DNA of 33,502 bases. Source: Candidatus Poribacteria bacterium (lineage in GTDB: Bacteria > Poribacteria > WGA-4E > WGA-3G). Below, one piece after another: positions 6,365 to 33,502 of the stretch. The translations under genes and the position numbers were made by a program. The notes below the pieces were generated by a model. It made no database searches and had not been told where the DNA came from. It saw only the letters and a program-made list of their open reading frames with translations. The stretch lies in NCBI GenBank assembly GCA_012270795.1, contig JAAXHO010000033.1:1-33502 (forward strand), in the 5' to 3' direction. Each line of letters starts with the position of its first letter. The stretch's first letter is position 1.

Positions 6365-7372
6365 CTACATTTTGACAGAAGGTTCCTGAACTGTCTCTAC
6401 AAGTTGCTGAACAACCGAATCAGCATCAACACCTTCAGCCTCTGCATGGAAATTTGTTAACAAACGATGCCTTAACACTGCTGGTGCAACAGATTTTACA
6501 TCCTCAATTGAGGCGTTATAACGACCTTTAAGAATAGCTCTTGCTTTTGCCCCCAAAATAAGATACTGCCCCGCACGTGGACCTGCTCCCCACCGCACCC
6601 ATTGTTGGACAAATTCTGGTGAATCTTTTTCTTTTGGCCGTGTAGCTCGGGCAAGTTTTACTGCATATTGAACGACATTGTCCGCTGCTGGTACTCTTCT
6701 CACGATTTGGTGTAGTGAGACAATAGCATCACCAGAAAGGGCAGTTTCTAATTCTGGTTCTTCAGCACCAGTGGTTGCCGCGATGATATCTACCTCTTCC
6801 TCCTCAGATGGATAATCAATAACTATTTTAAACATAAATCGGTCAAGCTGTGCTTCGGGCAATGGATAGGTGCCTTCCTGTTCAATTGGATTTTGGGTTG
6901 CAAGTACAAAGAAAGGTTCTGTTAATTTGTATTCTGTGCCACCTGCAGTAACATGGTGTTCCTGCATTGCTTCCAAAAGGGCTGCTTGTGTTTTCGGGGG
7001 TGTTCGATTTATCTCATCAGCAAGAAGGATATTAGCGAAAATTGGTCCCTGAATGAATCGTAGGGTACGATGACCGGTTGTGCGGTCCTCTTCAAGCACA
7101 TCTGTACCGATAATATCAGCAGGCATTAGATCTGGCGTAAACTGGATTCGCTTGAATTTGAGATTGAGTATGTCGGAAAGTGTTTTAATCATTAGGGTTT
7201 TTGCTAAACCGGGGACACCTTCTACGAGACAATGCCCCCCAGCAAAAAGAGCCATCAACATCTGATTGATTACCTCTTCTTGACCAATAATGACTTTTCT
7301 CAGCTGTGCAACAATTAATTCTTGACTTTCCATCAATTCTTCAATGGCTTTGACTTCTTCTGTGGCTGGCAT
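6365..7372 (-). CDS. MoxR-family AAA+ ATPase
   Basis: This 335-residue protein carries the MoxR signatures: Walker A at residues 52-59 (GVPGLAKT), Walker B at about 116-122 (LLADEIN) and the following [16 protein letters not shown] stretch, with sensor residues in [21 protein letters not shown]. MoxR ATPases act as chaperones that assemble or activate metal- or vWA-containing complexes. The usual DUF58 and vWA partner genes are not adjacent. Instead the gene sits 50 bases after a transglutaminase-domain protein, a common MoxR neighbour type. A strong aaaggag site 7 bases before ATG supports the start. Confidence 0.95.
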
Positions 7373-7422: not shown

Positions 7423-10332
7423 TTAATTCATTTTTCGGGTGAGAATAAAACGTTTGGTGCTCGGATTTGCAGCGATTCTGACGACATCCATGAGTTGCGA
7501 AACATTTTCTGCTTTCACAGTGGGAGAATGGAAGCGAACCGTCTGTTTCATTTCAGCTTTTTGATCAGATTTCTTGTAATGCAATTGAAGGTCAGCAATA
7601 TCTGTTTTAAGTTTCTTTTCTTCTGGCACCATTTTGACGATAAATGGTGCATCTGTTTCTACAGTAATATTTTCCTCAAGCGTTAGTGCTTTCCCTAAAA
7701 CTGCTGGATGGATGCGGTCCTCTTCCTGCAATAATTCAGCATACGGATGTTTCGCAACTGGTAACTCCAGAATATATTGGTCACCCATCTTATACAAGTA
7801 TTCCTTACAGGACCAAGTAATGTTAATTTCTAATTCAGGACCTAACTGTTCTGTATTAGAGAATTCAAAATGTTCTATTTTAGCGCGCTCATCCAATTCT
7901 AATGTGTTGCGTAACAAATGCATCCGTTCTTCACGATGACTGGTGTTTTTTAGTCGTGCACGTAATCTGGCATTGAAATCTCCAGAGACTTGCAACTGAT
8001 GTGTTACTTCAACACTCAAATCCTCTTTTACTCTAATTTTTGTTGAGGTCTTACGGACGTTTGCGTTAGCAGGAAGTAATGGACTCTTTTGCAAAGCATA
8101 GAGATGTTTTTTTAACATCTCACCATCCAGTTTCTGACGATCACTGCTGTTTGTACTTTGTGTATCTACAACGATACCCTTGGTAGTATCAGCATCGGTA
8201 TTGACAATAAGGGTCCATCTGTTTTGGTCAGCGGATGGGAAATCTCCATAAGCGTAAGTACTCGCAGTTGGATCAAGCCAAATCAGATCTTTATTTTTTC
8301 CACCATCTACTGCAAGTATCATATGATTAAAGTAGGAGAGTGAAGGCACATCAGTGACTATTTGACTTGCTTTACCTGCAGAAATTAGCACTGGATAAGA
8401 ATCAATCTCTGCAACACGAAGCATTGTTGAAAGAAGAGTGGACTTGCCTTTGCAGTCACCCCATTCTAATTCCAAAACCTTTGCAGCTGGATAAGGTTTA
8501 ATACCCCAAATTCCGCGTTCATCCCCAGCATAATCTATGTTTGTTGCAACGTATTCATACAATCGCTTAATTTTTTCTTGACGTGTTAATGCACCTGTAA
8601 GAATCTCTTTCGTTTTCTTCTCAATTTCTTCCGTAATTCTATCCTGTTCACGAATGAGTGTAGCGTACCAAGTGACCAATTGATCCCAAGATTTTAGTGA
8701 AGAAACACTAATGTTATAGGCAAGGTCCGAAACATCTGGCATCAATGGTTCTCTACTTAATGCTGGTACATCTTGTGTCTCAAAAGTATAAGTGCGCGTA
8801 TAATTGTTTTCAGTAATCGTGGGTTTGATTATTGGGCCGTCAACGCGATAAAGAAGTTGTTTTTTCTTTGGGATATGTGTAGTAAGTCGGTAATATTTTA
8901 CAGGTTCCTCAACTTGAAAATACACCTGTTGAAAAAACTCACCTTTCATTGCATCCCTAAAGTTCTTAGCAGAATAAGCATAGTCTATTACACAACCGTC
9001 TGAGATTTCTGGTAATTCAAAGTACATCAAACGTGTATTAACAAGCAGTCCAGCTGCTTCAGCACTTGCTGGTGTAATTCCGCGTACAATTTCGTTCTTA
9101 TCTAAATCTATTTTTTTGCCATCAGGTTGTAGCGTATAAGCATGATGAATAGTAACATCATCACCCCCTTGAGCATAAGGGATTTTAATCTCACCGAAGT
9201 GATGTCCATCTTCATTAAAGATTTTTACGATACGACGCGTGGAATAGATATGTTTACCCTCTTCATTTACATTATATACTTCCGCTTCCCATAATACAAC
9301 GGCACCGTTTTTTGGATAGTCATCAGATGAAGGTGCGTTTTCTATTCGTTTAATTATGTCTTGTTCGTCAGCTTCACTTATGAAATTATAGGGTAAAGAG
9401 GTATTCCCTTTCATTGTACCCTGTTCTTGTAAATGTGGCGGTAAAACTTCGTCAAGCTCATTACCATTCTCAGGTGTCTGTTCCAATCCTTCTTGATTGT
9501 TTTCTGCAGTAGTTGAATCTATTGGTGGCAGCGGTGTAAGACGTTTGCCTAAGTAGGTCTTACCAGCAAGTGTTCCTTCTCCGTTTGCTACAACATCCTT
9601 ACGCGATGCCCGGCCGTCTCCATTGTCATCAAGGTGGGGGTGTTCTACCTGAACCGAACCGTCCTCTTCGTACCATTTATCAACACGAGATTGCAGCCAG
9701 AGATATGCCTCTAAGAGGGATATTGCGCCATCGGTGTTTGCATCTGCGGTTGGTTCTGAGAAGACATCAACAAATAGATCCCCGAAACTTGCTTGGGAAG
9801 CATGCCCCTCTCTGACAGAACTTGATGTGACGATAATTCGCCCCTCAGCACTGATATTTTTGACCATCCTTGCACTGTATTGAAAGCCAAAAACGAGTAG
9901 TTGTTGCTTGGCAGAAATTTTATTGACAATATCAGTGTATTCTTGTTGTGTAATATCGCGACCGGGTAAATTAAACTTCACCCCTCCCGATGAACTTGAA
10001 GCATGTCCTATCATCAATAAAATAAATCTATCTGTCGGTTGTACCTTATCCGCAAGTTGTGCAAATGCTTTTAATATAGGTTCACGTTTAGCTTGCCCTG
10101 TGACGAGTCCTTGAGTTGAACCCTCATCTTCAAATAAAAATGTAATTTGCTCTTCAGAATATCCGTATTGCTGAGTAAGTAATTCGTGAAAGCGTGAAGT
10201 TGCACTCCAAAACTTGTCATAATAAGATTTCTCACCAGCCACACCGCCGATGATAAGCACATAATCTGTTGCGAAAGTTGTTGTACATACGAATAGAAAA
10301 ACAACCATGCTTGCTATGATAATTCGACGCAT
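7423..10332 (-). CDS. Secreted caspase-like (inactive?)/DUF3857/transglutaminase fusion
   Basis: This large 969-residue exported protein has a signal peptide at residues 1-21. An N-terminal caspase/legumain-like fold spans about 24-250: the catalytic-type His110 is present (MIGHAS), but where a CYSG-type motif is expected the sequence reads FGFQYSAR, so Gln151 replaces the cysteine. Two EF-hand-like loops lie at 197-208 and 235-246. A DUF3857 domain spans about 340-540, and a transglutaminase core has its triad visible: Cys627 (WGDCKGKS), His670 (FNHM) and Asp687 (LDPTA). A ggag site precedes the ATG. It heads a probable operon with moxR. The C-terminal enzyme looks competent; the N-terminal protease looks dead. 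Confidence 0.85.
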   Translation of the reverse strand: MRRIIIASMVVFLFVCTTTFATDYVLIIGGVAGEKSYYDKFWSATSRFHELLTQQYGYSEEQITFLFEDEGSTQGLVTGQAKREPILKAFAQLADKVQPTDRFILLMIGHASSSSGGVKFNLPGRDITQQEYTDIVNKISAKQQLLVFGFQYSARMVKNISAEGRIIVTSSSVREGHASQASFGDLFVDVFSEPTADANTDGAISLLEAYLWLQSRVDKWYEEDGSVQVEHPHLDDNGDGRASRKDVVANGEGTLAGKTYLGKRLTPLPPIDSTTAENNQEGLEQTPENGNELDEVLPPHLQEQGTMKGNTSLPYNFISEADEQDIIKRIENAPSSDDYPKNGAVVLWEAEVYNVNEEGKHIYSTRRIVKIFNEDGHHFGEIKIPYAQGGDDVTIHHAYTLQPDGKKIDLDKNEIVRGITPASAEAAGLLVNTRLMYFELPEISDGCVIDYAYSAKNFRDAMKGEFFQQVYFQVEEPVKYYRLTTHIPKKKQLLYRVDGPIIKPTITENNYTRTYTFETQDVPALSREPLMPDVSDLAYNISVSSLKSWDQLVTWYATLIREQDRITEEIEKKTKEILTGALTRQEKIKRLYEYVATNIDYAGDERGIWGIKPYPAAKVLELEWGDCKGKSTLLSTMLRVAEIDSYPVLISAGKASQIVTDVPSLSYFNHMILAVDGGKNKDLIWLDPTASTYAYGDFPSADQNRWTLIVNTDADTTKGIVVDTQSTNSSDRQKLDGEMLKKHLYALQKSPLLPANANVRKTSTKIRVKEDLSVEVTHQLQVSGDFNARLRARLKNTSHREERMHLLRNTLELDERAKIEHFEFSNTEQLGPELEINITWSCKEYLYKMGDQYILELPVAKHPYAELLQEEDRIHPAVLGKALTLEENITVETDAPFIVKMVPEEKKLKTDIADLQLHYKKSDQKAEMKQTVRFHSPTVKAENVSQLMDVVRIAANPSTKRFILTRKMN

Positions 10333-10434
10333 TTTTCTTTCTCCACTTATATTTTTTTCTTTTTTTAATTATTCCCCGATTAAACTATTATAACACTTTT
10401 TCTGGGTACTAACAAAACGCTTATTGTGTTGGTA

Positions 10435-10929
10435 TTACAAACTGAAATCTCCGCTTGTTCCACCAGTTTTCTTTACTAATTTTATATCAGATAAAGCCAT
10501 CTCTCTGTCAACAGCTTTGCACATATCATATACTGTTAATCCTGCAACAGAAACGGCAGTAAGTGCTTCCATCTCAACGCCAGTGCGACCAATGGTCTGT
10601 ACCTCTGCTTCAATTTCTATCCTCTCATTTTCTATAGAAACATCTACTCGGATTGATGTGAGATTTAGTGGGTGACACAGAGGTATAAGGTCACTTGTTC
10701 TCTTTGCTGCCATATAACCTGCCAGTCGTGCCACCTCCAACACGTTGCCCTTCTTCATCTGTTGTTCTTCAATGAGATTTAAGGTTTCGGGTTGTGCAGT
10801 CACATGCCCACTTGCAATTGCGGTACGTAAAGATTGTGGTTTGCTGCCAACATCAACCATCTTCGTGTCTCCTTTATCATCAATGTGAGTTAACTTCTCT
10901 TTTCCAAGAATCTGGGTTATTTTATTCAT
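10435..10929 (-). CDS. moaC: Cyclic pyranopterin monophosphate synthase MoaC
   Basis: This 164-residue protein is typical of MoaC, which converts the MoaA product into cyclic pyranopterin monophosphate in molybdenum-cofactor synthesis. Visible family motifs are KLTHIDDKGDTKMVDV, the CHPLNLT motif, TGVEMEALTAVSVAGLTVYDMCKA and KTGGTSGD near the end. A short N-terminal extension of about 12 residues precedes the usual family start. It follows the xylulokinase-like gene by 48 bases. No other moa genes are next to it, although a MoeB-like gene is at the far right of the window. Confidence 0.96.
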   Translation of the reverse strand: MNKITQILGKEKLTHIDDKGDTKMVDVGSKPQSLRTAIASGHVTAQPETLNLIEEQQMKKGNVLEVARLAGYMAAKRTSDLIPLCHPLNLTSIRVDVSIENERIEIEAEVQTIGRTGVEMEALTAVSVAGLTVYDMCKAVDREMALSDIKLVKKTGGTSGDFSL

Positions 10930-14897: not shown

Positions 14898-16897
14898 TCA
14901 TCTAACGTTTTTCAGTTTGCCCCATTGCGTCACACGTTTACTAACTGGCGATAGTATACCACGTACCCTTTGCGTTCCGAGTACGTTACGGACACCACTA
15001 TACGACACATCTAAAAGTTGATAATAATACATAACACCAGGCATAGCAGTTGTATCTGTAAACATGTAAGATGAGCGTTGACCTGTTGTGCCTGCTCCCG
15101 GAATTAACTTAGTATTGAGCATTTCATAATTCCCGGGACTCGACTGACTCCGTAGCACATAAAAACCAGCGTTGTTTAACTCCGATTCCGTAGTCCATTT
15201 GATAACGATATTCCCTGAAACAACATTCGTTGTGAATGCTGATAAATTAACAGGTAGTGGGGTATTTTTGCTACGATAACCACAGGCGTGCCAATATCTG
15301 ATAAGTGTCCGTAATATATGCCTTCAGACGGGTTTTTTACTTTATCCGCAGGTATCCATCCTTTACGTTCTGTGCCCAGGCGAGGTGTATCTTCATCAAA
15401 ACGCCGAATAAATGATACACGAACATTAAGGAGGCGTTTAGGAATTTCCCATGCGGTGCCTCCACCTCCATTTAAGTTCCCTATCGTATCAATCAGTGTA
15501 CCATTAGCATCAAGGAGCGTTAGCGAAAAACCATCTGTTACTATCATATTGTTCTTATTGTTTGTATTCCAATTGAATTCAACTGAGTGGTGACTGAATA
15601 AATTATAGATTTGTTCGGGTTCAAGTACTTTCCCACCAGAATTTCGAGCTGATTCTGATGATGTAACGATTAAACGTGCTTCGTGAGCAGGGACAACAAA
15701 ATCTATCTGAATTTGCACCGTCCGTTCCAAAATAGGTTCTTTGCCTTGTTTCATGTATTATAGGATATTCCGGATGGCGTTTTAACTGTAATTGCCACCC
15801 CCGCAGATTTACATCAACTGTGCTTATGTTGTAGATCTCAATCCATTGTGGCATTGAATGAAGTTCGTTTATAGATTGAAATAGAAATTCACTAAAAACG
15901 ATTTGATGCAATGTCCCATCTACAGGTGTATAACCGGTAGGAATTACCACTACCGACTGCTGATCCCCGGTTCCGCCATAAACGAACGTTCCATTGTTAT
16001 CAACAATGAATGATCCCTTAGGAACTGTTAGACTATTTGGTTTTATTGTCACGTTGGACGTATCATCGCCGGGGAGCACCTCATATATAAAGGTTACCTC
16101 CGTTGAATTGGTATCTTTTGAAGATGTCCATTCTGCATGCCGCTCATTCTCGGGAATTTGCTCTCCCATATACACAATCACGTAGGGTTTAGCATTGGCA
16201 TGGCGCGTTCCATCCGCGTCAAATGTCACGTTTACTTGAACCTCATCTCCTTCATTGTAGGTCTGTGGTGCCTCCTCAGAAAATCCGATCTTGGTGATTC
16301 TACTCTTGACAGTGTTTCTAATATCAAAATCAAAATTCACTGTTGTTAGATCCGGGTTTTTTCGTAAGATCTCCTGGAGCAAACTAAGGTCGTCCATGAT
16401 GGAATCCGGAATATTAAGGATGGTTAGTTTCGTTAAATTTGTTATCACACTAAGATTGGAGGTAGGATTTCCTATAAGCTGTAATGCTGTAAGGTTTACC
16501 AATCCTGCGACAGCACTAATATCGTCGATTTGGTTTGAGGTTATGTCTAACCATGTTAATTTTGTTAATCCCGCAAGCGGGTTAATATCACTAATCCCTT
16601 CTGGAACAAGGACCAACAATTCTAAATTTGTTGCATATTCCAAGCCGGTTATGTCTGCAATAAATCCATCCCCGCGATCTCGAAACTCCCGATAGTGAGT
16701 ATTTAACTTAGTCAACCCTTTTAGAGATTCCTGCGTAAGTTCAGCATCTGGATCCAATTTAAGTGCTCTTCGTACGACTTTCCGCAGAATTGCATCTGGC
16801 ATCCACGCTGCCGCAGAATCTTCCTGTGCAAAACAAATATCAATACTTCCACTGAAAATCATGATTAAAATGACAATGTAAATGTAAAAATTTTCAT
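14898..16897 (-). pseudogene. Frameshifted secreted LRR/lamin-tail-like protein
   Basis: One gene is broken into pieces. Reading begins at about 16897 (MKIFTFTLSF, with an aaagga site), leaves frame in a short T run near 16867-16870, continues as four or five leucine-rich repeats (about 16420-16710) and a beta-rich region to a lamin-tail-like start. It shifts again between about 15757 and 15735, and shifts a third time at 15282-15283, where dropping two bases restores GTPGYRSKNTPLPV. The last part reads like a fibronectin-type module (WTTESELNNAGFYVLRS) and ends KRVTQWGKLKNVR. Neighbouring genes are intact, so decay is likelier than poor sequence, but read errors are possible. Such proteins are probably surface adhesins. 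Confidence 0.82.
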
Positions 16898-19250: not shown

Positions 19251-20021
19251 TTATTGCTCGTACTTAATAGTTCCCCAAGTCGTTGCTAATTTATCTCTTG
19301 GGTCGACTGCAGTACCAGATTGAAACCCAACTTCCATTTCAGCAATAACTTCTTCTTCAGTTAGGGCACGATTCCAAATTCGAACTTCATCAATCAAACC
19401 GAGAAACCGTCTATTAGCTCCCTCAGCTGTAGTTCCAACAAAGACATTTGATGTATCGCCAGCACCTGGTAATGGAGTCTTCCCGCCAAATTCACCGATA
19501 TTTTCTCCATTTAGCCAATACCTATGGAATTCTCCATCAACTTGAGCAACAACATGTATCCATTCATTAAGAGGAAGTTCAGTTGAACAGGTACTTCCAC
19601 CACCAGCACTAAAATGCATACATAAACTTGGTGATTCTGTATAGAAACTATACGATCTGGGACCATTACCTTTTGACAAAATTCCTTGCCAACGTTGGTT
19701 ATTCGGTCCCATGTGTCTTTCAGCATTAATCCATGCCATGACTGTTACACCGGATTCAACGGTTAGACTTGGGTCATGTGGCACTTCCACCCAGTCAGTT
19801 GTACCGTTTAATTTCAAAGCTTTACCAAACTTGCCATCTACGTGTTCTGGTGTGCCATTAATTACACCGTTATTACTATATTGTGAGTGATCAATAGTAT
19901 TCTCTCCATCTAATTCGTCAAAAGAGAAGTAGAGGATGAGTGTGTCATCTGTTTCATCCGCTGCAAAAGAAAATGCAGCAACGAATAAAGTGAGAGTCAA
20001 TACAACAAAAATAGACTTCAT
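19251..20021 (-). CDS. Secreted LamG-domain protein 1
   Basis: This 256-residue protein has a signal peptide at residues 1-20 (…FVAAFSFA) followed by one LamG/concanavalin-like jellyroll at about 28-230 (LYFSFDELDGENTIDHSQYSNN start, GLIDEVRIWNRALTEEE end). Cysteines in SLCMHFSAGGGSTC may form a disulfide. After the domain a short linker leads to the tail DKLATTWGTIKYEQ at the very C-terminus, shared with the other three LamG paralogues here. A ggagg site precedes ATG. LamG domains bind carbohydrates or proteins, so an extracellular adhesive or host-interaction role is plausible. No catalytic residues are seen. Confidence 0.87.
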   Translation of the reverse strand: MKSIFVVLTLTLFVAAFSFAADETDDTLILYFSFDELDGENTIDHSQYSNNGVINGTPEHVDGKFGKALKLNGTTDWVEVPHDPSLTVESGVTVMAWINAERHMGPNNQRWQGILSKGNGPRSYSFYTESPSLCMHFSAGGGSTCSTELPLNEWIHVVAQVDGEFHRYWLNGENIGEFGGKTPLPGAGDTSNVFVGTTAEGANRRFLGLIDEVRIWNRALTEEEVIAEMEVGFQSGTAVDPRDKLATTWGTIKYEQ

Positions 20022-20112
20022 AATTTAATTATCCTCCAAAGATAATTTTATTCTTCAAAATTTGAAGTTTTTGAAAAAATTCGTGACAGGACAAATTCTA
20101 TCAGGAATATAA

Positions 20113-20886
20113 TTATCGTTTATTTGCTTTTATAGTTCCCCACGTAGTTGTTAATTTCTGCCGTGGGTCAACTGGAAAAAGTTCAAAGTGTCCTTTCTCC
20201 ATCTGTTCGCTGATTTCATCTTCGGTAAGTGCCCGACTCCAAATACGCACCTCATCAATTAGACCCATGAATTCACGTGCACCTTCATGTGTCTTACCAA
20301 TAAAGACATTCATAGTATCAGCAGCCCCAGGTGGATTGGCTTTTCCACCGTATTCACCAACATTTTTGCCATCTATCCAATAGCGATGGAATCCATCAGA
20401 TACTTGTGCAGCAACATGTTGCCATTGGTTTTCTACAACCTTACCATCACAAGAACTTCCGCCCCCATTTACACTAAAGTGTAAACACCCCTTTCCTGTC
20501 TCTGTATAGAAACTATAGGAACGTGGACCATTGCTCTTTGCTAAGATACCTTGCCACTGTGCATTGTTAGGTCCTGAAATCCTTTCTGGATTTATCCAAG
20601 CCATAACAGTAACTGCTTCATCAACAGTAAGAGTTTCATGATGTGGAATTTCAATCCAATCAGATGAACCATTTAGTTTTAGAGCTTTTCCAAATTGTCC
20701 CTCAACATGCTCTGGATTGCCAACTATAGTACCATTGTTTCCATATTTTGAATGGTCAATGGCCTCATCACCCTCAATAGTATCAAAGGACATATAAAGA
20801 ATCAGTGCATCCTCTGGCTCAATTAAGGCATAAGAAATAGACGTAAATACTGCGATTATCGTTACCATAATACATAAAGTTTTCAT
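20113..20886 (-). CDS. Secreted LamG-domain protein 2
   Basis: This 257-residue paralogue of the adjacent LamG genes has a signal peptide ending around SISYA (residue 20), one LamG jellyroll and the same end, QKLTTTWGTIKANKR. It keeps the paired cysteines (KGCLHFSVNGGGSSC). A ggag site precedes the ATG. The gap to LamG 1 is 91 bases, so co-transcription is likely. It has diverged clearly from its neighbours, suggesting an old duplication with conserved architecture. Confidence 0.87.
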   Translation of the reverse strand: MKTLCIMVTIIAVFTSISYALIEPEDALILYMSFDTIEGDEAIDHSKYGNNGTIVGNPEHVEGQFGKALKLNGSSDWIEIPHHETLTVDEAVTVMAWINPERISGPNNAQWQGILAKSNGPRSYSFYTETGKGCLHFSVNGGGSSCDGKVVENQWQHVAAQVSDGFHRYWIDGKNVGEYGGKANPPGAADTMNVFIGKTHEGAREFMGLIDEVRIWSRALTEDEISEQMEKGHFELFPVDPRQKLTTTWGTIKANKR

Positions 20887-20988
20887 GATTTTCTCCTTAT
20901 TGATTAAGTAATCATTTTAGACTCATTTTCTGACAATGTTAAATCAATTTTGACCCAGTTATAAAAATGATATTAGTTTTATTATTCT

Positions 20989-21147
20989 AACCTAAGTTGC
21001 CACCTACTTTCAGAATACTCTTGTTGGAGGGGTTTCTAACCCCGATTTATGACAAGTCGTATCAGCATTCGTTGTTTTTCTATTTTCTGTTATCAATCGG
21101 GGTTAGAAAACCCTCCAACAAATAATAGGTAGCAAGCAACTTAGGTT
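20989..21147. repeat. Inverted-repeat element between LamG genes
   Basis: An inner inverted repeat at 21021-21047/21095-21121 (27 bases, one mismatch) carries the same ggggtttctaacccc core as 199-266 and 1333-1413. Outer imperfect arms (about 20989-21008 and 21126-21147, containing cctaagttgc/gcaacttagg) extend it to about 159 bases. The distal arm ends in the stop codon of LamG 3. This element and AT-rich sequence fill the 259-base gap between LamG 3 and LamG 2. Confidence 0.75.
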
Positions 21148-21925
21148 ATTCTACTTTGAGATGTCCCCATGTTGTTGTTAGTTTCTGTCGTGGGTCCACT
21201 GGAAATATCTCAAAATGCCCTTTATTCATCTGTTCGTTAATTTCATCTTCAGTGAGTGCGCGATTCCAGATACGCACTTCGTCCATCAAACCGAGGTACA
21301 TTTGCGCAGCACCACCGCTATCTGTTCCAATAAAGACATTAGATGTGTCTGTTAAACCTGGCGGATCCGGTTTGTTAACAGATTCCCCGACTTTCTGGCC
21401 ATTTATCCAATAACGGTGCGTTCCATTATCTATCTGAGCGACTACATGTTGCCAAACGTTTAGCTGCACTTTCCCTTGGCTGAGAGTGCCTCCCCCATTC
21501 GGTGGACCAACACTGAAATGCAAACATTCGCAAGCGGAATCAGTATAGAAACTATAGGAACGTGGGTTATTACCTTTTGCCAGTATACCTTGCCATTGTG
21601 CGTTATTCGGTCCGGTATGTCTTTCAGCATTAATCCAAGCCATGACGGTAACGTTCTTATCAACAGTGAGACTTTCATGATGCGGGATTTCAACCCAGTC
21701 ACTTTGTCCATTTAACTGCAACGCCTTACCAAATTTACCCTCAACAAGTTTCGGATCCCCCTTTATATCGCCATGGTTTCCATGCATTGAATGGTCTGTA
21801 GCCTTCTCATCATCAATCGTATCAAAAGACATGTAAAGAATCAGTGAATCATCCAGTTCATTCTGTGCGAAAGAGACAGATACAATTAATGAAATTAAAA
21901 CTAACATTATACTTATAATTCTCAT
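21146..21925 (-). CDS. Secreted LamG-domain protein 3
   Basis: This 259-residue protein has a signal peptide ending near SVSFA (residue 20), a LamG jellyroll and the shared tail QKLTTTWGHLKVE. One of the two cysteines that bracket the central loop in LamG 1 and 2 is replaced by a longer glycine-rich loop (GPPNGGGTLSQG), while ACECLHF keeps two others. A gaagga site precedes the ATG. The stop codon lies within the arm of a palindromic repeat, suggesting the repeat inserted at the gene's end. Confidence 0.87.
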   Translation of the reverse strand: MRIISIMLVLISLIVSVSFAQNELDDSLILYMSFDTIDDEKATDHSMHGNHGDIKGDPKLVEGKFGKALQLNGQSDWVEIPHHESLTVDKNVTVMAWINAERHTGPNNAQWQGILAKGNNPRSYSFYTDSACECLHFSVGPPNGGGTLSQGKVQLNVWQHVVAQIDNGTHRYWINGQKVGESVNKPDPPGLTDTSNVFIGTDSGGAAQMYLGLMDEVRIWNRALTEDEINEQMNKGHFEIFPVDPRQKLTTTWGHLKVE

Positions 21926-22024
21926 TTTATTCCTTCATTAGTATTTATTGACAGGGTTATTTAGTTTTAAGAATTATCAGTTGATGTGTGTTACTTAAAG
22001 TTTATATCGTAGGTCCAAATCAAG

Positions 22025-22195
22025 AAATCAACGGTATGAATGCCTTTTGGCATTCCCCCAAATCAACGCTACAAATGCCATTTAGGCATTTGGCGGGAAT
22101 GAATGTCTTATTGGCATTCCCCGGGTAGAGCGTAAGCGAAACCCGACATGTATTGTTTTCGGTTATCATGTCGGGTTTCCGCTTACGCTCTACCC
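22025..22195. repeat. Composite repeat with long hairpin
   Basis: The 376-base gap between LamG 4 and LamG 3 holds several structures. A 43-base segment (22025-22067) matches 135-177 with one mismatch. Small palindromes built on aatgcc/ggcatt lie at about 22038-22115. A long hairpin has arms 22123-22150 and 22167-22195, complementary over 28 bases apart from one extra c, with a 16-base loop. No reading frame is supported. The long hairpin is a different repeat type from the ggggtttctaacccc family. Confidence 0.75.
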
Positions 22196-22301
22196 GACCT
22201 ACGCATCTAATTCACGAATGTTATAAATATCTGTCAAAATACCTAAAACTGAATAACCCTGATTTATTGATGCGACGAACAATTGATGATTGTACGACAA
22301 G

Positions 22302-23084
22302 TTATTGTTTTACTTTCAGATAACCCCATGTCGTTGTTAGTTTTTGGCGTGGGTCAACAGGAAATATCTCAAAATGCCCTTTATTCATCTGATCCTTGAT
22401 TTCATCTTCAGTGAGAGCGCGATTCCAAATACGGACTTCATCAATCAAACCGAGAAACCAACGTATATTATTTCCACCTGCTGTTCCAATTACCACAGGA
22501 TTTGTGTCTTCTAATCCAGGCGGATTCGGTTTGTTACTGATTTCTCCAACTTTTTCTCCGTTGATCCAATAACGGTGCGTACCATCATTAAATTGAACAG
22601 CAACATGTTGCCACACATTTAACGCAATTTCACCATTGCACACACTCCCACCTCCGTTGGGCGGACCTATACTTAAGTGTAAACACTTGCTATTTCTCTC
22701 AGTCCATAAACTATAGGAACGTGGACTATTTCCCTTTGCAAAGATCCCTTGCCATTGTCCATTATCGGGTCCTGCATGTCTCTCAGTTTTGATCCAAGCC
22801 ATAGCAGTAACAGCTTCGTCTACTGTCAACGATTCATGGTGTGGGATTTCTACAAAGTCTGAATCTCCATCAAATTCAAGGGCTTTATCGAACCTTCCTT
22901 CAACATGTTCTGTATCACCCATAATTACACCATTGTTTCCATATATAGAATGGTCTATAACCTCGTCACGATCAATTGTATCAAAGGACATATACAAGAA
23001 TAGTGAATCTTCAAGTTCTTCAACAGCAAAAGATGTTGATACGCCAACAAACATAAGTGTTAACAAAATAAATAAATGTTTCAA
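22302..23084 (-). CDS. Secreted LamG-domain protein 4
   Basis: I choose the TTG at 23084 as start because it has a gaggtg site five bases upstream and yields a signal peptide (KHLFILLTLMFVGVSTSFA) aligned with its paralogues. A TTG at 23096 would add four residues. The protein is about 260 residues with one LamG jellyroll and the common tail QKLTTTWGYLKVKQ. It begins 20 bases after the stop of the CRTAC1-like gene, so it is probably the last gene of that operon and the founder next to which the other LamG copies arose. Confidence 0.85.
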   Translation of the reverse strand: MKHLFILLTLMFVGVSTSFAVEELEDSLFLYMSFDTIDRDEVIDHSIYGNNGVIMGDTEHVEGRFDKALEFDGDSDFVEIPHHESLTVDEAVTAMAWIKTERHAGPDNGQWQGIFAKGNSPRSYSLWTERNSKCLHLSIGPPNGGGSVCNGEIALNVWQHVAVQFNDGTHRYWINGEKVGEISNKPNPPGLEDTNPVVIGTAGGNNIRWFLGLIDEVRIWNRALTEDEIKDQMNKGHFEIFPVDPRQKLTTTWGYLKVKQ

Positions 23085-23104
23085 AATGCACCTCAAATAT
23101 GAAC

Positions 23105-32146: not shown

Positions 32147-33334
32147 TCAATCAGCAGCAGGGGCAAAAGTTTCAGGATTTTCCGCTGCAGCATCATAATC
32201 GTCAATGAGTTTTGTTATACTCGGATTCTCCCCACAAAGCGGGCAATTCTCATCACGAGGAACCTTCATTTCGCGGTAGGTCATTCCAAGTGCTTCATAC
32301 AGGATAAGTCTGCCGATAAGCGGTTCACCGATACCGATAATATACTTAATCGCTTCCGTTGCCATCATAACGCCAATTACGCCTGGGAGCACGCCCAGGA
32401 CTCCAGCCTCACTTCAACTCGGCACCAGGCCTGGCGGTGGCGGTGTGGGATACATGCATCGGTAGCACGGACCCTCATTTGGTTTAAACAAGGTAACCTG
32501 CCCCTCAAACTGAAAAATACTGCCATGCACTACCGGTTTATTCATCAACACCGCAGCATCGTTCACAAGGAAACGGGTAGCAAAGTTATCACACCCATCA
32601 ACTATCAGATCATATTCCGAGAAGATCTCTTCAACGTTGTCAGCGGTAAGACGGAGATTATACGGTGTAATCTCAACATCCGGATTAAGTGATTTTATGG
32701 TCGTTGTCGCAGATTGAACCTTTGGCGTCCCCACCGCCTCAGTACGATGTAAAATCTGACGCTGCAAATTACTTAACTCCACTACATCAGAGTCTATAAT
32801 CCCCAAGTGACCAATACCAGCAGCACCGAGATAAACACCCGCAGGTGATCCTAAACCACCAGCACCGACAAGTAAAACCCTTGCATCAAGCAATTTCGCC
32901 TGACCTTGTTCACCCACTTCGGTTAACATAAAGTGTCTGCTATAACGGTCAAGCTGCTCGTGTGACATCGGTTTATCTTGTGTTGTGGGTAACCCAGCAG
33001 CTGTCCAGTCACGATAACCGCCTACCATAGATACAGTATCTGTATATCCCATTTCACGAAGCGATTTTGCAGCAAGCAGTGAACGAAGTCCTGCAGCACA
33101 ATAGACCACAACCTTTTTATCCCTGTCAGGAATGTAATTCTCAACAGAAAATTCCAACATCCCGCGGGTAACGTGAACTGCATCCGGGATATATCCAGCG
33201 CGATATTCATCTTCATCACGAACATCCAGAAGCACAAAGTCGCTTCCATCCGCCTGCTCCGCCTTCACATCAGCAACAGTCACCTCTGGAATTTCAGTTT
33301 TTGCCTCTTCTACGATCTCTCTATACGATTTCAT
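32147..33334 (-). CDS. Rhodanese-MoeB/ThiF fusion with in-frame UGA (putative selenoprotein)
   Basis: I read this as one gene through the TGA at 32414-32416, giving 395 residues with position 307 as selenocysteine. Both sides share one frame and align with MoeB/MoeZ/Uba4-type proteins. An N-terminal rhodanese domain (active-site Cys79, VVYCAAGLRS) is followed by the ThiF fold (GAGGLG at 157-162, zinc cysteines 290 and 293 in CYRC, and 364 and 367 in CPLC). The UGA falls in PS-U-SEAGVLGVLPG, where relatives have PSCAEAGV, the conserved crossover-loop cysteine. The enzyme would adenylate and sulfur-load a ubiquitin-like MoaD/ThiS-type carrier. The start ATG at 33334 has a ggag site. A nonsense mutation is the alternative. 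Confidence 0.78.
32382..32416 (-). promoter_or_regulatory. Possible bacterial SECIS hairpin next to in-frame UGA
   Basis: Read on the minus strand, the TGA at 32416-32414 is followed by a perfect 6-base stem cctggg/cccagg (32399-32394 with 32387-32382) with loop cgtgct. The loop's G and U lie 22-23 bases after the UGA; in E. coli fdhF the loop GU is about two bases nearer. A loop starting within the first two bases with a G fits bacterial SECIS features. The stem uses GC-rich codons (ctg ggc gtg ctc cca ggc) unlike the AT-rich codons common elsewhere in the window. The stem is short, so this is a candidate only. Confidence 0.5.
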
Positions 33335-33362
33335 ATATCTTTCTCCATGTTTTCTCTTGTCA

Positions 33363-33392
33363 AATATAGATACACTATCTACATTTAAACAA
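33363..33392 (-). promoter_or_regulatory. Possible promoter of the rhodanese-MoeB gene
   Basis: On the minus strand TTGTTT (33392-33387) is separated by 18 bases from TATATT (33368-33363), a plausible sigma-70-type pair about 30-60 bases ahead of the start codon at 33334. A palindrome (ttggt/accaa) lies at about 33412-33428 upstream. Weak evidence in AT-rich sequence. Confidence 0.3.
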
Positions 33393-33502
33393 TTTCTCAA
33401 CTGGGCTTAAATTGGTTTGTCTTACCAACTAAACTTGTTATAGCATGTTTCCGTTTATACTTTCAATGAAACTATCTTAACAGGACTTACGCATTCCCCT
33501 CG

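Follow-up and report, generated by a model that had tools for sequence, protein, structure and literature searches.

A conserved caspase-like domain without its nucleophile, fused to a transglutaminase-type enzyme in Poribacteria

We analyzed a stretch of 33,502 nucleotides from a Candidatus Poribacteria genome (assembly GCA_012270795.1, contig JAAXHO010000033.1; "the window" below means this whole stretch), in which one gene encodes a fusion of an N-terminal caspase-like domain with DUF3857 and a transglutaminase-type enzyme. The open reading frame (ORF) at positions 7423-10332 was correctly delimited; its strand is the minus strand, and its product has 969 amino acids (aa). Almost all details of the original observation were confirmed. 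The caspase-like domain is under purifying selection and is conserved though dead. With a probability of about one half, we read it as a pseudopeptidase binding module that would hold a substrate or a binding partner in place for a live thiol enzyme, with one MoxR subtype as a helper.

The caspase-like domain and the enzyme half

The original prediction, made from the sequence alone, proposed a caspase-like fold for the N-terminal domain and asked for a structure prediction, the result of which agreed with clan CD. An AlphaFold2 model of residues 22-262, for which an alignment of 45 family members down to 40% identity (A1) was the input, had a mean predicted local distance difference test score (pLDDT) of 87 and a predicted template modelling score (pTM) of 0.90. 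Its best Foldseek matches in the Protein Data Bank (PDB) were legumain (4n6o, E 2.3e-9) and metacaspase 4 (6w8r, E 7.1e-9). VIA structural realignment gave Z 21.6 for metacaspase 4 (208 residues, 2.6 Å), 20.8 for legumain, 19.2 for the GPI transamidase subunit and 16.5 for Yca1, with the legumain and metacaspase 4 matches spanning 203-208 residues at 2.6 Å. The A1 profile also matched PDB sequences of the metacaspases Yca1 (E 5.8e-5) and metacaspase 4 (E 2.1e-4) over a span that includes the catalytic His; the window domain searched as a single sequence reached E 0.2 at best. Because the model, the structure matches and this independent sequence-profile match agree, the caspase/legumain fold of clan CD is well supported for the modelled domain. 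The modelled H110 comes just after strand 81-87, and Q151 after strand 122-128 (domain numbering); the loops after those strands are where the clan CD dyad sits, as described in PMC4357240.

Assignment of the domain to C13 or C14 through Pfam was rejected. The first 260 residues had no Pfam match above cut-off, and PF01650 (Peptidase_C13) and PF00656 (Peptidase_C14) gave no match to the window domain at E 10, each matching 2 of the 45 A1 members at E 1 (best 0.0008 and 0.0012, respectively). The domain shares with legumain (C13) and metacaspase (C14B) the whole-domain fold (Z 16-22, 200-211 residues aligned) and the catalytic-type His at the end of strand 3, but it differs from them in lacking the Cys nucleophile, in a sequence identity of 10-19% and in having no Pfam match to either family.

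His110 was expected to be retained and Gln151 to stand at the place of the catalytic Cys, and both residues were found there. Hidden Markov model and profile-profile alignments (E 1.3e-17 and 1.9e-13) to active poribacterial caspase-like proteins aligned residue 151 with their catalytic Cys and residue 110 with their His. A survey of relatives, also suggested in the original prediction, never found Cys at this position: among the loci of named genomes, H110 was present in 58/58 and residue 151 was Pro in 53 and Gln in 5 (59 rows minus one contig fragment without these positions). An overlapping 47-row alignment, in which 46 rows have the domain and the other (G037) lacks it, showed H110 in 46/46 and P or Q at residue 151 in 40 and 6 rows, respectively. 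Deep family members have DFPFSG where active relatives show DACxSG, a readable trace of the Cys loss; judged from these alignments, the loss is ancestral to the family and preceded its radiation. Another nearby Cys acting as the nucleophile would have spoken against the prediction and was rejected as a candidate: the window protein has four cysteines (C16, C447, C627 and C842), none of them within aa 22-262, and Cys residues at 58, 132, 141 or 171 are sporadic in the family. By its residues, the domain is dead as a cysteine peptidase.

Other caspase-like proteins of the phylum have intact sites (DACHSG, DACHAG or DCCFSG with a GHG histidine, and EACYSG or EACRSG with an SHN or SHG histidine); as close relatives they were rejected, their matches to A1 being weak (E 1e-8 to 1e-3). 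A second family of about 545 aa, also a weak A1 match, has a degenerate caspase-like domain (L147, from 2417 onward on the plus strand, L148, L149 and L156, in genomes G009, G015, G052 and G003). It partly keeps HG or RGH, shows DGYA or DCYT where DACxSG is expected, and is possibly another pseudo-caspase family of Poribacteria.

Selection on the domain was estimated from the ratio of nonsynonymous to synonymous substitution rates (dN/dS) in 15 orthologue pairs, which are not independent, three of them sharing L016-L018. The N-terminal domain had values of 0.03-0.25 (median 0.077), close to what the transglutaminase domain showed (0.01-0.22, median 0.059) and for the most part lower than in the linker (0.04-0.54). 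A1 contained 29 invariant columns, 10 of which fall in the 34 of 241 positions that form strand-end loops of the clan CD active site (hypergeometric p 0.0025, with the loop regions, located from PMC4357240, picked after the invariant list had been seen). The domain was found in four families of the phylum (f1, f3, f4 and f8).

The C-terminal half was said to hold a complete transglutaminase triad, and Cys627, His670 and Asp687 were indeed present and were conserved in 46/46 rows that cover them, the 47th being a fragment without that part. The Pfam matches of Transglut_core (aa 574-645, E 1.1e-7) and DUF3857 were above cut-off. A model of this half (pLDDT 87, pTM 0.82) matched PDB 3KD4 (BDI_1141 of Parabacteroides, "putative protease") from end to end (Foldseek E 1.7e-34; Z 29.8 over 495 residues), as did the sequence profile (E 5e-11), and its middle matched human transglutaminases 2 and 3 and factor XIII (Z ~10). 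The likeness to 3KD4 covers the entire C-terminal half of the fusion, but the 505-residue chain of 3KD4 has no caspase-like domain. As modelled, the C-terminal half has a DUF3857-transglutaminase-DUF3858-like architecture, and its residues suggest that the transglutaminase-type part is active as a thiol enzyme. In further structure comparisons, the DUF3857 part (window 8742-9387, minus strand) resembled the N-terminal beta domain of M1 aminopeptidases (Z ~9), and OST1/ribophorin I, an oligosaccharyltransferase subunit, aligned over most of the enzyme-half chain with a poor root-mean-square deviation (17 Å).

The same genome carries one paralogue (C278; L200:3713-6442, minus strand; 909 aa). 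It begins with a lipobox-like segment, and TPR repeats replace the caspase-like domain ahead of DUF3857 and transglutaminase; a relative of it is present in most genomes searched. In genome G037, the enzyme half has an orthologue (48% identity) to which no caspase-like domain is attached. From the TPR paralogue and this domain-less orthologue, the enzyme core takes exchangeable N-terminal parts, and TPR, a standard protein-binding module, in the same place favors a binding role for the pseudo-caspase. In genome G021 (L036:4625-8596, plus strand), the fusion gene shows up as a pair of ORFs, in which a domain is repeated and a stretch is unread; an assembly fault is the probable cause.

An export-type start was also anticipated, and a signal-peptide-like stretch was recognized by eye at the N-terminus; related ORFs begin with comparable hydrophobic stretches. 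The fusion protein is predicted to be exported, either periplasmic or secreted.

Linkage to MoxR and relatives beyond the phylum

The fusion gene was described as lying before moxR, which we found 50 bp downstream in the window and adjoining the fusion gene in 50/58 loci. Among the eight loci without an adjoining moxR, two end at a contig edge (L071 and L105), four belong to f4, one to f8 and one to genus g8 of f3. We surveyed 84 genomes of the phylum, counting as window-type any MoxR with 70% identity or more, a subtype that was checked by tree for 7 relatives only. The N-terminal domain was strongly present in 66/84 genomes, and 6 more had weak matches to other caspase-like genes. G065, in which the domain is cut by a contig edge and its last part lies beside moxR, was counted as the 67th fusion genome. 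Window-type MoxR was present in 65/67 fusion genomes versus 1/17 others (Fisher p 4e-14, kinship ignored). The single non-fusion genome with it is G046; since G046, G061 and G047 also lack moaC, assembly gaps are likely in these three. A tree built from 22 MoxR rows grouped the window subtype into a clade of 8 (support 100/98), and a partial MoxR of G052 fell outside it. The MoxR of the window matched AAA_3 far better than bpMoxR.

All 58 family loci in named genome records were labelled Poribacteria. One clear relative from elsewhere was found on Gemmatirosa kalamazoonensis plasmid NZ_CP007129.1 (locus L166, tblastn E 3e-22), and it aligned with the window family at an hhalign E of 2.7e-29 (32% identity, 188 residues). 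This homologue keeps the His, GH.S, FNLPG.D, the EF-like loop and EH..LDD.GDG and likewise has no Cys, but Ser takes the nucleophile place where the poribacterial family has P or Q. Unlike the window protein, the part seen is not fused to DUF3857-transglutaminase, and alongside MoxR its cluster adds genes for a vWA-like ORF (E 6e-4, under cut-off), TPR and DUF58. The pseudo-peptidase gene (L166:7850-8735, plus strand) is split over two frames, with the domain start in the other frame. The search of plasmids returned this clear record and one partial record, annotated "peptidase C13", on a Pseudomonas plasmid; the sequence search of viral contigs returned no relative. Cys-less proteins of the FNLPGPD type are presumably widespread in other phyla, but the Gemmatirosa record alone was verified, and this single record is thin evidence for a cross-phylum habit. 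It is rather doubtful, though conceivable, that legumain/caspase-like domains without Cys make up a separate, cross-phylum class of MoxR-partnered binding modules, the dead site serving as a dock for clients or peptides, which in Poribacteria would be fused to DUF3857-transglutaminase as an exported enzyme relying on a dedicated MoxR subtype.

c-FLIP is a caspase-fold pseudopeptidase, and the bacterial roles of such proteins are largely unexplained. The pseudo-orthocaspases of PMC6426788 are likewise prokaryotic caspase-fold proteins, without the catalytic dyad and presumed inactive, whereas the window family keeps the His and has Pro or Gln for the Cys; the terms C13, Poribacteria and transglutaminase do not occur in the main text of that paper. 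In MoxR-vWA ternary conflict systems, as described in PMC7159879, MoxR is also linked to caspase-like or, rarely, transglutaminase-like peptidase domains. The window differs from them in having no vWA protein among the 10 neighbours scanned (VMAP/iSTAND components being outside the comparison), in the predicted export of the fusion and in a MoxR that is AAA_3-like rather than bpMoxR. Each part is already known: pseudo-orthocaspases (PMC6426788), DUF3857-transglutaminases (3KD4) and MoxR-linked peptidase domains (PMC7159879). The open-access literature search, made in one library, found no description of the combination, of the state with His kept and Cys changed to Pro or Gln, or of the co-occurrence with MoxR; no paper linking Poribacteria and transglutaminase was found in the open-access literature search.

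The preferred reading and its alternatives

For the binding-module reading, we infer export, binding, thiol-enzyme activity and MoxR action. The N-terminal domain would have lost its nucleophile before the family radiated and would have been retained as a pseudopeptidase. The face that once formed the active site, including His110 and the invariant loop GG..GEKS.YD.FW, may bind a peptide or partner protein, and the bound target would be recruited to, or placed for, the C-terminal DUF3857-transglutaminase-DUF3858-like unit, a putatively live papain-like thiol enzyme that could be a protease, amidase or cross-linker. One MoxR AAA+ subtype may work with the fusion, probably helping it to fold or assemble either before export or at about the same time. 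The original prediction offered a binding or regulatory module, which stands as the most economical reading because the dead domain is conserved and TPR occupies the same place in the paralogue; the binding itself we infer. "Binding module" is better supported than its companion suggestion of chaperone-assisted maturation. A dead domain fixed across several families of the phylum and tied to an apparently live thiol enzyme and one MoxR subtype, together with a Cys-less relative that stands on its own within a MoxR cluster of a different phylum, offers a small, concrete system for studying the targets of MoxR proteins and the ligands of a dead caspase domain.

Several observations weigh against this reading. 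The enzyme is not strictly dependent on the caspase-like domain, since G037 keeps the enzyme half without it. Window-type MoxR is missing in the fusion genomes G045 and G052, and a single family accounts for 57 of the 65 genomes with co-occurrence, which makes the count non-independent. MoxR is unlinked in f4 (4/4 loci), where it lies near ribosomal genes, and in G041, where it lies near other genes. The MoxR of Gemmatirosa falls outside the window subtype (56% identity, long branch), and no vWA or DUF58 partner for MoxR was seen among the 10 window neighbours scanned. MoxR proteins are cytoplasmic and the fusion is predicted to be exported, so MoxR would have to act before export or indirectly, which speaks against a simple maturation model.

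MoxR could be unconnected with the fusion protein and be kept beside it by conserved gene order alone, a possibility of limited but real weight. The long order TrxR-XylB-MoaC-fusion-MoxR-GT2 is conserved in the window's family, and the separation of the two genes in f4 fits this explanation as well. It is opposed by genus g5 of f3, where the other neighbours differ and yet fusion and moxR lie 9-10 bp apart, and by the absence of the MoxR subtype from non-fusion genomes even when moaC is present (G035, G037 and G038).

An intramolecular regulator, in which the N-terminal domain covers the transglutaminase active site until calcium, through the EF-hand-like loops, or proteolysis of the linker frees it, seems unlikely. 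Zymogen control is common in clan CD according to PMC4357240, and a variable, fast-evolving linker of about 50 residues joins the modules; such variation is equally expected for a passive tether. The EF-hand-like loops had been thought to sit between the domains, but both (aa 197-208 and 235-246) fall inside the modelled caspase-like domain, and EF-hands as an inter-domain element were rejected by this position. The loop pattern fits 42/47 rows, with Pfam EF-hand scores below cut-off. The first EF-hand-like segment is also present in active poribacterial caspases and so is not specific to the fusion arrangement, and the G037 enzyme has neither the caspase-like domain nor a stand-in Pfam domain.

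Residual catalysis by a different residue, such as the invariant Ser153 paired with His110, is very improbable. Both residues are kept in 58/58 covering loci, and pseudoenzymes often lose both dyad residues; Ser153, however, aligns with the Ser of CxSG in active relatives, two residues past the nucleophile, and Pro at 151 in most members would be expected to distort the nucleophile loop. We know of no enzyme of the Ser153-His110 kind. A decaying relic that drifts after the loss of catalysis would suit the absence of the nucleophile from every member, but in this plain form it is refuted by the dN/dS values, and the 29 columns invariant over 45 members down to 40% identity and the presence in four families leave it almost no likelihood.

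Features of the window

The features of the fusion gene and its neighbours are listed in Table 1. Promoter-like sites over the whole region were not above chance (12 found versus 14.6 expected). The function of moaC is probably separate from that of the fusion gene.

Table 1. Positions of the fusion gene, its domains and residues, and adjacent features in the window.
Feature	Position	Strand	Basis
Fusion-protein coding sequence, 969 aa	7423..10332	-	ORF and orthologues
Predicted Sec signal peptide, aa 1-21	10270..10332	-	By eye: hydrophobic core, then TFA|TD
Caspase/legumain-like (clan CD) domain without nucleophile, aa 22-262	9547..10269	-	Profile, model, structure matches
His110 codon, retained catalytic-type His	10003..10005	-	H in all covering rows
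Gln151 codon at catalytic-Cys place	9880..9882	-	P or Q in family; aligned to Cys of active relatives
EF-hand-like loop DANTDGAISLLE, aa 197-208, inside caspase-like domain	9709..9744	-	EF-hand_5 E 0.18-0.24, below cut-off
Second acidic loop DDNGDGRASRKD, aa 235-246, part of EHPHLDDNGDG motif	9595..9630	-	Like motif in poribacterial C13-like proteins and Gemmatirosa
Variable linker, aa 263-315	9388..9546	-	Mean identity to window 31% versus 65% for N-terminal domain
DUF3857, aa 359-524	8761..9258	-	PF12969 E 3.9e-30
Transglutaminase-like domain, ~aa 531-720, Cys627/His670/Asp687	8173..8742	-	PF01841 E 1.1e-7; triad conserved; fold matches
DUF3858-like C-terminal domain, aa 885-960	7453..7680	-	PF12970 E 0.012, below cut-off; whole-chain 3kd4 match
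moxR (AAA_3), 50 bp downstream of fusion gene	6365..7372	-	PF07726 E 1.1e-63; tree; co-occurrence
Promoter-like TTGTTA-17-TATAAT between moaC and fusion gene	10387..10415	-	Motif scan
moaC, upstream neighbour, conserved in most loci	10435..10929	-	Neighbour scan

Three further observations were made elsewhere in the window, all on the minus strand. At 15176-16862, two overlapping ORFs seem to be one gene in two frames with a leucine-rich-repeat-like start, the frameshift being either real or due to sequencing. Four tandem, similar LamG-like exported proteins of 256-264 aa, recognized by eye, have DPRQKLTTTWG-type tails (19251-23096). At 32414-33400, a rhodanese-like domain was recognized by eye ahead of a ThiF/MoeB-like domain; the usual order is the reverse, with the ThiF/MoeB-like domain before the rhodanese-like one.

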